NCBI RefSeq assembly: GCF_002795405.1
Contig: NZ_PHGZ01000015.1
Span: 1-64,000 of the forward strand
Length of the DNA stretch: 64,000 nucleotides
Direction of reading: 5' to 3'
Source: Caviibacterium pharyngocola
GTDB taxonomy: Bacteria > Pseudomonadota > Gammaproteobacteria > Enterobacterales > Pasteurellaceae
Under the pieces are notes generated by a model. The model did no database searches and was not told the DNA's origin. It saw only the letters and a list, made by a program, of their open reading frames with translations. Below are positions 49,490-53,611 of the stretch, piece after piece; the stretch's first letter is position 1; every line of letters starts with the position of its first letter. The position numbers and the translations under genes are program-made.

Positions 49490-49583
49490 CTTTTCCTCCG
49501 ACGACTTAAAATAAAATTGATAAAAGGTCGCTTATTTTAGCACATTTCATAGGGTAATACATAAACCCTTCCGAAAAATACAC

Positions 49584-49614
49584 AAAAAAAATTGCAAGCC
49601 TTTCGACTTGCAAT
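49584..49614 (-). terminator. Native rpsI terminator beyond the intron
   Basis: Perfect 8-bp stem ATTGCAAG/CTTGCAAT with an 8-base loop and a T-run of seven on the minus strand. It starts 26 bases into the 3' exon, so in spliced RNA it lies directly after the rpsI stop codon. Confidence 0.9.
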
Positions 49615-49640
49615 TTCTTCGATAAAACGAAAATAAAAAT

Positions 49641-49679
49641 GTCGGGTAGCGAAAATGCATTACTACATTTCCGCCCCCT
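49641..49679 (-). ncRNA. Group II intron domain VI
   Basis: A stem-loop of the form GGGGGCGGAAATG...CATTTTCGCTACCC follows domain V after two to three bases. The A of CTACCCGAC (complement of position 49647) is seven bases from the intron end, the usual place of the branch-point adenosine. Confidence 0.8.
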
Positions 49680-49681
49680 AA

Positions 49682-49715
49682 GAACTGTACAAGCAAATTT
49701 CTCTGCATACAGCTC
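49682..49715 (-). ncRNA. Group II intron domain V
   Basis: A 34-base hairpin starting GAGCTGTATGCAGA and closing TTTGCTTGTACAGTTC around a GAAA tetraloop. The AGC catalytic triad is at the 5' side, and the two-base bulge is on the 3' side. This is the catalytic core, and it appears intact. Confidence 0.92.
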
Positions 49716-49735
49716 AAGCCTTTCTATTATCTGTG

Positions 49736-51475
49736 TTAGACAGCTCCTTTACTGATTGTTAGGTTTAATGCGTGTATCTGTGTATGACAAGTTGGGTGCA
49801 CCAAACAACGATTTTTCAAGCTATCACTTCCTCCATTCATTTTGTAAATAATATGGTGGTCGTGCCAGCCTGTTTGTTTCGTGATTGGTTGATGGCAATA
49901 AGCACACTTTCCTTGCTGTTCCTTAAATAACCAACTCCAAATTCGTCTATGCTTTTCTTGGTTGTATAACCTGCGTTGACGAAGAAGTTCGCTTTCTAAT
50001 TCCCATTCAGGTAGAAACGGATTATATTCCGATTTTATCTTTATGTGCCGTTCTATTTTTACCCCACTACAATAGACTAAGTCTATCGGGTGTAAATCGC
50101 CTTTCTTATCAGTGTAAACTGTTCCGAACACCCAACTTCGGGTTGCTGTGGTACAAAAGTATTTCTCTTTTATCCACTTTATCCCTTTATTGTGATGTCT
50201 CCGTTTACACCATTTCCATAAGGCTCGCCATACTAATGCGTCCATTCGTCCAAAGGCTTTGCTTGCCACTTGATGTTTGTGGTAGATTGCCCAACCTCGT
50301 AGCATTGGATTAAGTACCCTAATTAAATCAGATTGTTTTGCCATTTTCATTTTAGAAATAGTTTCTTTGACTTTACGATAAAATGTTTGCACATTCTTTT
50401 TGTTCGGTCTAATCAACACTTTTCCTTTGAAACGTCTGACATTCCAACCTAAAAAGTCAAAACCCTCTTCAATATGTACCACTTTTGTTTTACTCTCTGA
50501 AAGTGTAAGACCTCGTTCAGCTAGAAAACCTTTAACAAGTGGGATAACCTTTTCTTCCAGTAATTCTTTAGAAATCCCCGAAATAATAAAGTCATCAGCA
50601 TATCGAACAAGATAGGTTTTGTGTCTTCGGATTTTTGAGCCTGTTTTCTTGCCAAAATGTTCAGCAAGTAAGCTCTCTAATCCATCCAATGCCATATTTG
50701 CTAACGTTGGAGAGATAATACCGCCCTGCGGTGTGCCCTCCTCTGTTCGCTTGAGCTGTCCAAACTCCACTACGCCAGATTGAAGCCATTTTCGCAATAT
50801 CCGCTTGTTCATCGGTATATGCTTTAATAGCCAATCGTGGCTGATGTGGTCAAAACACCCTTGTATGTCCGCATCTAATACCCATTCCACTGGCTGATTG
50901 GTTTTCTTCCCTTTATGAGAGAATATCTGATGAATATGTGTTATCGCGTCCGCTGTGGAACGTTCTAACCGAAATCCATAAGAGCCTGTATCCGCCAATG
51001 TTTCTGCTACGGGTTGTAGCCCCAACAAATATAACGCTTGCATTGCTCTATCTTTCATTGTCGGAATACCCAATGGGCGTTGTTTTCCGTTTGCTTTAGG
51101 GATAAATACTCGCCTTAATGGGAGTGGTTTATACCCTTTAGCTGAAAGTGAGAAAATCGCTTGGTATTTTTGTTCGGGGCTATTCCATAGCACCTTATCT
51201 ACGCCAAATGTGCGTTTACCTTGATTTTCAGTCACTCGCCTTACTGCAATCGCTTTTGCATAAAACGAGTGGACAAGTAATCGTTGTAGGTTTTTAACCC
51301 TACGCCAATCCTTTGCCAAAGTTGCCTTCGCAATCCGTATCTGCACACCTTTAACAAATTGGTAAGCCTTTTGCCATTCAATAAAATGCCATTGGCTTAA
51401 CTTTTTCGATTTGTTCGAGGTCGTTGGAGTTGGATTGCTTTCTACTTTTTTAGTATAATGCTTTCGCTCTTTCAT
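49736..51475 (-). CDS. ltrA: Group II intron reverse transcriptase-maturase with HNH nuclease
   Basis: A full-length 579-residue intron-encoded protein. RT motifs run from IPKANGKQRPLGIPT (125-139) through DADIQGCFDHI (201-211) and GTPQGGIISPTLANM (247-261) to the catalytic YADD (292-295). A maturase X domain follows (about 360-425), then a C-terminal HNH endonuclease with CAYC (524-527), HDHH (538-541) and CH (563-564). AGAGG precedes the ATG. With all motifs present the intron should be able to splice and retrohome. The protein type with HNH is that of chloroplast-like and bacterial B-class introns. Confidence 0.96.
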   Translation of the reverse strand: MKERKHYTKKVESNPTPTTSNKSKKLSQWHFIEWQKAYQFVKGVQIRIAKATLAKDWRRVKNLQRLLVHSFYAKAIAVRRVTENQGKRTFGVDKVLWNSPEQKYQAIFSLSAKGYKPLPLRRVFIPKANGKQRPLGIPTMKDRAMQALYLLGLQPVAETLADTGSYGFRLERSTADAITHIHQIFSHKGKKTNQPVEWVLDADIQGCFDHISHDWLLKHIPMNKRILRKWLQSGVVEFGQLKRTEEGTPQGGIISPTLANMALDGLESLLAEHFGKKTGSKIRRHKTYLVRYADDFIISGISKELLEEKVIPLVKGFLAERGLTLSESKTKVVHIEEGFDFLGWNVRRFKGKVLIRPNKKNVQTFYRKVKETISKMKMAKQSDLIRVLNPMLRGWAIYHKHQVASKAFGRMDALVWRALWKWCKRRHHNKGIKWIKEKYFCTTATRSWVFGTVYTDKKGDLHPIDLVYCSGVKIERHIKIKSEYNPFLPEWELESELLRQRRLYNQEKHRRIWSWLFKEQQGKCAYCHQPITKQTGWHDHHIIYKMNGGSDSLKNRCLVHPTCHTQIHALNLTISKGAV

Positions 51476-52109
51476 ACTTACCTCTGATATAACAAGAGTT
51501 TGGTATAAAAGTATTGGTTTTAGGATAACACCTTATCTTGCAACAACTTTCCCAAGCCCGTAAATATCCTATTTACGTTCAAATCGTTACAAGAGTGTAT
51601 TATCATAAATACCGATAATTTTAACCGCTCTTGTAACCGATTAGGGCAAAGAGTGGAGCGTTAGGTTTTATTTAACAAGCCTAACGCTCGTTTTCTTTGT
51701 ATTGTTTACATCGTCATCATTTTCACTTCCTTGATGTCCATAATGGGAACTTTTGTAAAACCATTATTTCTTTCTGTAAAATGAATTTGATTACCTTTAA
51801 GATGTTGCATTCATCTTGCGATGAAAGACCAGTTGGAAGTCTGCACCCTTTCGAGTTAGGCTATGTTTCACACCCTATCTGCACCATTACAGCACAGCAT
51901 TTGCTTTTTCCAACCTCCCTTACCTGCATTTTCAACAGTATCGCTTACGCTTTACCTGCCCTATCCTTTTCCCCAGTTTGTACATAAGTATGTATCAGTA
52001 TTGAGTATTGTGGACGTGGCGAAAATACAGGCTTACCAAGTTCCGTAATTATCACACGAGTAGGGAAGATACAGTCTGTTCTCCGGCAGCATTATGATGA
52101 CGTATTCCC

Positions 52110-52116
52110 AACGCTA
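52110..52116 (-). other. EBS1 of the group II intron
   Basis: The RNA reads UAGCGUU in the loop of a hairpin with stem GCAGCA/UGCUGC. It pairs over seven bases (one G-U) with AACGUUA, the last seven bases of the rpsI exon (53220-53226). Confidence 0.8.
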
Positions 52117-52217
52117 AAGAGAATATCCTGCTGCATACCTTTTGGTCTAAGCCAATAGCAACCGTAGGCTCTTCCTCGTAACGAAGTTTATCAACTGTTC
52201 ACTTACGTTTATCTTTC

Positions 52218-52223
52218 TACCCA
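52218..52223 (-). other. EBS2 of the group II intron
   Basis: The RNA reads UGGGUA, pairing over six bases (one G-U) with UACUCA in the rpsI exon just upstream of the EBS1 target. Its distance of about 100 bases before EBS1 is normal for domain I. Confidence 0.6.
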
Positions 52224-53218
52224 GTCTAGCCTCTCTCAATGTGTGTTGCTCACATTTTCCTTACATTACCTCACGGCAATATAAGCCCTTTCGGGGAGTA
52301 CATTGTCAGGAAGCTCCGCACAAAACCGTTGCCAGTTATGCACTATCCCTAGACTACTGTTAGCCATATAACAGGTTGTACTATGAATTTCATTGCAAAG
52401 TTATATCTCAACAAAATTCATCACAACAATGATAATTACAGCTTTCGCATACTTACTAAGTTTTAATAAATAAGCCCTTGCTGTTGCTTTAAAACTTACC
52501 TTTTGTAATTTATTGCTAAATTACTTTGTAAATTAACCGCTTAATATCAGATAGATCGAACCTATAGCTATGCAAATAGATAGATGATCAGTCTATTTAT
52601 AGGATAGATAAGTAAGATCACTGGATATAAGTTTAGGTAAATTTGAGCCGATAAATAGCCGTGCTGTTACCGCAAGCCATTTACGGGTAGCTATCAATTT
52701 CAAGCTACAATGGGTGCTTCCTTGTAGGAACGTCCCTAAGTAAAGATAAGTAGTAAAGTATACATTCGATCATAAGAAATTCCACTTCCTTATTTTCGGC
52801 TTCTCTCAGAATGCTGTAAGCCTTTCGGACTTTATTTATAGTAGGTTGCACAATTATTCTTTATGGACGATATTACGTTTAGGATTTGACCCCAGCCACT
52901 CTACTTAAAGCAGGCGACTAACGGTAGTAATATCTTTCGATAACGGATCTTGCTTTCTTACTCTCCTCAAACTCCCTCGTACAACGTAGTTGAGTACCTC
53001 AGAGTGAAGATCATACCTTATTACCGCATAAAGTTGGAAATTGTCTTCCCCAACTTAGCACCAAGTCTTGAGCAACGCTCCGTTCTTGGCCTGGCTTCCC
53101 AAGTACCCCCGAGGGGTACTTGAAAAGTGGAATAGAAAGACATATAATGCCTTTCCATTCCTGCAATAACTCCTTGATATATAAGGAGAAATTGCCATAA
53201 GCACGACAACTTGTCGCA

Positions 53219-53611
53219 CTAACGTTTTGAGTATTGCGGACGACGACGTGCTTTGTGTAAACCCACTTTTTTACGTTCGACGCGACGCGCATCACGGGTA
53301 ACAAAGCCCGCTGCACGTAATGCAGGACGTAAAGTTTCATCGTACTCAATTAACGCACGAGTGATACCGTGACGGATTGCACCCGCTTGACCTGAAATAC
53401 CGCCGCCTTTTACAGTGATATAAAGGTCTAACTTATCTGTCAATTCAACCAATTCTAACGGTTGACGCACGATCATACGAGAAGTTTCGCGACCGAAATA
53501 TACGTCTAATTCACGTTGGTTGATAGTGATTTTACCACTGCCCGGTTTGATAAATACACGAGCTGAAGAGCTTTTGCGGCGACCTGTGCCGTAGTTTTGA
53601 TTCTCTGCCAT
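53219..53611 (-). CDS. rpsI: Ribosomal protein S9
   Basis: A 130-residue protein of the small subunit, ending in the conserved PQYSKR tail that reaches the P-site tRNA. It starts [15 protein letters not shown], as in related bacteria. The stop seen in the DNA is TAG, whose G is the first base of the group II intron; the ancestral and spliced stop is TAA. It lies 16 bases after rplM in the usual operon. Confidence 0.97.

Follow-up and report, generated by a model that had tools for sequence, protein, structure and literature searches.

The rpsI locus of Caviibacterium pharyngocola (Pasteurellaceae; GCF_002795405.1, NZ_PHGZ01000015.1, positions 1 to 64,000, the 64,000-nucleotide stretch referred to here as the window) carries a group II intron with an oversized domain I, raising the question of whether a second, ORF-less intron is nested within it. 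A sequence-only reading of the locus had proposed such a twintron, with a duplicated or expanded domain as alternatives. The host intron displays the group II hallmarks, a GUGYG 5' end, domains V and VI, an AY 3' end, EBS/IBS pairings and a reverse transcriptase-maturase IEP (Table 1). On the minus strand, the 5' exon ends in CAAAACGTTA and the intron starts with GTGCGACAAG at 53219. Empty rpsI alleles of other Pasteurellaceae read CAAAACGTTA followed directly by ATTTT, also given as CGTCGTCGTCCACAATACTCAAAACGTTA followed by ATTTT, which equals the two flanks of the window joined, and both intron ends are therefore exactly placed. EBS2/IBS2 and EBS1/IBS1 are fully paired (6/6 and 7/7, respectively, with one G-U pair each). 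Downstream of the intron, a GCAAGCC/GGCTTGC hairpin, probably a terminator, is covered by a weak plus-strand match to the Atu_C9 sRNA at 49553-49616 (24.7 bits, gathering score 40).

The excess length is confirmed by measurement. EBS2 lies 997 nt from the 5' end, in agreement with the roughly 1000 bases noted earlier, and the D1 anchor 862 nt from it, compared with 210 and 74 nt, respectively, in the intron of gamma proteobacterium HdN1 (L106/L107), a relative without the insertion. The HdN1 intron, which starts with GTGCGACCTGAAGTTGCTTGAATGATTGTTTC, otherwise resembles that of the window, sharing a homologous IEP (53% identity), the same D1D4-7 and D5/D6 and the GTGCGAC 5' end, and has ∼17 nt where the window has ∼760 nt. 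The extra RNA had been assigned to 52330-53100, a close estimate, but the extension actually occupies ∼53212-52449, beginning directly after GTGCGAC, and 52375-52231 is ordinary domain I.

Table 1. Features of the rpsI intron and its domain I extension (window coordinates).
Feature	Position	Strand	Basis
Complete group II intron, 3579 nt, GTGCG...CCCGAC	49641..53219	-	Rfam D1D4-7 and D5/D6; empty alleles fix junction
rpsI (ribosomal protein S9), host gene	53219..53611	-	identity from sequence
Expansion, ∼760 nt extra structured RNA, between 5' GTGCGAC and conserved GCGNAAGCTGT..ATTGTT	52449..53212 (about)	-	alignments with HdN1 and 20 relatives; covariation
5'-terminal hairpin GUGCGACAAGUUGUCGUGC	53201..53219	-	in all aligned Pasteurellaceae copies
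Two covarying hairpins, 53193-53183/53175-53165 and 53162-53149/53142-53129	53129..53193	-	two-sided changes at 15 pairs
Covarying hairpin, kept in both Pasteurellaceae subtypes	53059..53091	-	covariation and joint alignment
5' strand AUAAAUAA-A-GUCC of 12-bp long-range helix, partner 52477-52466	52827..52839	-	20 sequences, both subtypes
Hairpin with GCUACC, not an intron 3' end	52687..52708	-	compensatory changes in 5/6 pairs
3' strand GGGCUUAUUUAU of 12-bp long-range helix, partner 52839-52827	52466..52477	-	consensus fold
Domain I core, ordinary (group-II-D1D4-7)	52231..52375	-	Rfam, 106.7 bits
EBS2 TGGGTA, partner IBS2 TACTCA	52218..52223	-	intron 997-1002
EBS1 TAGCGTT, partner IBS1 AACGTTA	52110..52116	-	exon pairing
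IEP, 579 aa: RVT_N, RVT_1, GIIM maturase, HNH endonuclease	49736..51475	-	domain matches
Domains V and VI; sole domain V of intron	49641..49717	-	Rfam 58.9 bits; family model 96.5 bits

The long 5' region is not peculiar to this copy. The genome contains two paralogues, 88% and 70% identical, with the same colinear long 5' region, which also occurs in ∼20 of 140 genomes of the family; close relatives of this kind are what the sequence-only reading had named as evidence against its own proposal. Fourteen members could be aligned across the whole region; six further ones have this architecture except for a differing middle part, so that two alternative middle modules, type 1 and type 2, occur within the Pasteurellaceae.

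The extension is a folded RNA whose helices covary among these relatives, which bears out the expanded domain of the earlier alternatives. On the alignment, the consensus fold pairs 96.8% of cells and includes 45 pairs with changes in both partners, compared with 23.7 ± 2.4 in shuffles (0/500) and with 36–50% paired and 6–15 two-sided pairs when partners are slid by 1–3 columns, values to be read with the fold having been derived from the same alignment used for scoring and sequence kinship inflating covariation. The 12-bp long-range helix is paired in 20 sequences, one of its pairs occurring as UG, UA or CG. In a joint alignment with type 2, the first hairpins, H3/H4, H16 and the 12-bp helix hold in both subtypes, whereas the GCUACC hairpin, H23 and, in part, the proposed closing helix H6 (53025-53018/52438-52431) fail; no conclusion is built on H6 for that reason. 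Since some helices are common to both subtypes and others are not, the extension has a common scaffold and replaceable parts. Its overall topology is uncertain because the closing helix partly fails in type 2 and both this helix and the 12-bp helix are absent from the single-sequence fold. Conservation is poor in the middle of the extension (intron ∼570–720), which could be RNA with little structure. A pairing predicted between 53127-53122 and the EBS2 region was dropped as an artefact.

Combined, we favour, with a probability of about 0.93, one continuous mobile intron with a vertically inherited, peripheral domain I extension of ∼0.75 kb after GUGCGAC, the Pasteurellaceae and largest form of a known CL1/IIB1 lineage. 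A nested ORF-less group II intron, spliced first and thereby letting the outer intron fold, would account for the ∼0.75 kb of extra length and for the intron-end-like motif GCUACCCGU beside a hairpin near 52685-52710. The motif is present as had been described but it is the 3' strand of a covarying hairpin (52708-52703/52692-52687), and its use as a 3' splice site is ruled out by covariation, five of the six stem pairs being changed on both sides. GCUACC is not kept as a sequence, varying instead with its partner (GUAGCU/AGCUAC, GUGGUU/AACCAC, GCAACU/AGUUGC), and the hairpin that contains it is missing from the type-2 subfamily. No 5' end for an inner intron was detected either, GTGYG occurring within the extension in none of the 14 aligned relatives; in the alignment it opens column 1 (14/14) and recurs at a single other place, column 975 (8/14), inside D1D4-7. 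The absence of a convincing second domain V, already remarked upon from the sequence, was borne out by covariance searches, which returned only the true one: Rfam cmscan at E <= 10 detected no other in the intron, and a family D5/D6 model built from seven family members and run with filters off scored the true domain V at 96.5 bits and the next best match at 8.2 bits. Applied to 20 related loci, this model gave a single match per locus in 18, and none within an extension. In addition, no relative was seen from which a defined internal segment had been cleanly lost. All Pasteurellaceae relatives measured have the extension, and in outgroups its length is graded. With these observations set against it, the nested intron retains almost no credence.

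Duplication of part of domain I, which would also yield extra structured RNA of similar composition, is equally hard to sustain at the sequence level, as the best direct repeats in the 1.74 kb are short and imperfect (20 nt at 75% and 14 nt at 86%) and D1D4-7 matches once. A twintron or other captured element of ancient origin, its inner ribozyme decayed past recognition and the fossil co-opted as structure, would fit the size of the insertion relative to HdN1 (hundreds of nt against 17) and the alternative type 1 and type 2 middle modules, which show that exchange or rewriting of blocks does occur. It is very improbable, if marginally less so than the two preceding explanations, as neither a domain V, intron ends nor a mobile-element protein has left a trace, extension lengths climb by clade and not in one step, and a search of IMG/VR and of 369 genomes from the class gave no stand-alone copy of the core motif CCTACTATAAATAAAGTCC, which is conserved, beyond the introns of this genome. 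None of the matches listed for plasmids and E. coli includes the extension, all beginning at intron position 833 or beyond.

The length of the 5' region varies with phylogeny. In a midpoint-rooted maximum-likelihood tree of 66 IEPs, the distance from the 5' end to the D1 anchor, for which several rows have no value and some 5' ends, notably those of L039 and L104, are placed by motif only, is 819–942 nt in the Pasteurellaceae (all 14 tree rows with a measurable distance). In the sister clade, the Orbaceae, it is 433–456 nt in most, with one value uncertain; for a Gilliamella bombi copy that is not in the tree the value is 720 nt. Distances of 299–620 nt are observed in Burkholderiaceae and Pseudomonadaceae, 361 and 539 nt in Vibrionaceae and 184 nt in a Rhodocyclaceae MAG, with HdN1 basal at 74 nt. 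A branch with 100/96 support holds 63 rows apart from HdN1, L104 (184 nt) and L110 (without a value), under midpoint rooting and with several rows lacking a distance. Such grading by clade fits a peripheral insertion that has grown and been remodelled, not one captured in a single event. In the Gilliamella loci L048 and L112, a GTGCGATTCG motif precedes the true 5' end by 164 nt (within rpsI in L048), rendering the 1282-nt value for L039 unreliable. Tandem head-to-tail introns are found in Haemophilus massiliensis and Frischella japonica (L033:6874-6875; L044:6825-6826), in which CTACCC[AG]AC is followed immediately by GTGCGAC, the 5' end GTGCGACAAG thus lying directly after the 3' end of another copy.

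Large 5' insertions in group II introns have been described previously. According to the published accounts, a subset of CL1/IIB1 introns carries them (PMC4028801, PMC4465626), and the Azotobacter groEL intron (Ferat et al. 2003; Michel et al. 2007; via PMC4028801, PMC4465626, PMC8283771), that of A. vinelandii, is placed in a monophyletic subset with a large insertion at the 5' extremity (PMC4465626, after Michel et al. 2007). Compared by description, those introns and the one examined here have in common an RT/maturase, a large domain I insertion immediately at the 5' end and a site within the stop codon of an essential gene. The Pasteurellaceae form differs from what is described for that subset in its ∼0.75 kb insertion, the longest clade found, and in its sites, rpsI, gapA and tuf, not groEL. 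Assignment of the window intron to CL1/IIB1 is likely, given its HNH domain and the way the class is described in the literature. The 5' insertion as a feature is thus known; what is added here is the Pasteurellaceae form, with its length and structure. Bacterial and archaeal twintrons (PMC4424553, PMC4649490) are likewise oversized group II introns; unlike them, the window intron has no inner domain V or GTGYG...AY ends, and the additional RNA characterizes its entire lineage.

The window copy lies in the stop codon of rpsI, the empty site being TA/A (slash, insertion point), with a UAG stop that takes the first G of the intron. The other copies in the genome are located directly after the gapA stop codon TAA and in that of tuf, between TA and G, and the IEP is open in all three. 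Several members of the lineage (window 53219; L113:566; L114:245; L108:3992) are thus located in or right after the stop of an essential gene, which is rpsI, gapA or tuf in this one genome and groEL in Vibrionaceae relatives (Photobacterium, Vibrio), where the intron resides in the stop codon itself. Among Burkholderiales and Pseudomonas relatives (L049-L111), a TATAAT-like hexamer (at least 5/6) is observed 9–12 nt upstream of the intron at 24 of 30 distinct sites; in these 5' flanks, other offsets give the hexamer at 0–2 sites and -35 matches are weak. Judged by these motifs, such relatives insert just downstream of promoter -10 boxes, a preference of which no description was found in the literature searched.

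In the continuous intron favoured here, the whole element, extension included, would be removed in one splicing reaction. The extension would fold as side branches of domain I, leaving the catalytic core from D1D4-7 onward unaltered, and was probably built up stepwise by hairpins being added and remodelled, not by intron capture. The S9 stop would be UAG before splicing and UAA after, with S9 being made either way. A speculative and rather unlikely proposal would give the Pasteurellaceae extension a function of its own, as an RNA module that might serve the IEP or ribosome as a platform, or act as a switch that links translation termination at the host stop to splicing; on this view, it was elaborated because the lineage targets the stops of essential, highly expressed genes.

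For this locus, the twintron question is all but closed by the comparative sequence evidence. The introns of HdN1, without the insertion, of the Burkholderiales, with 0.3–0.6 kb to the anchor, and of the Pasteurellaceae, with 0.8–0.9 kb, form a comparative set that lets the origin and role of a known but unexplained 5' insertion be tested. Within a single genome, this lineage has introns at the stop codons of three different essential genes.
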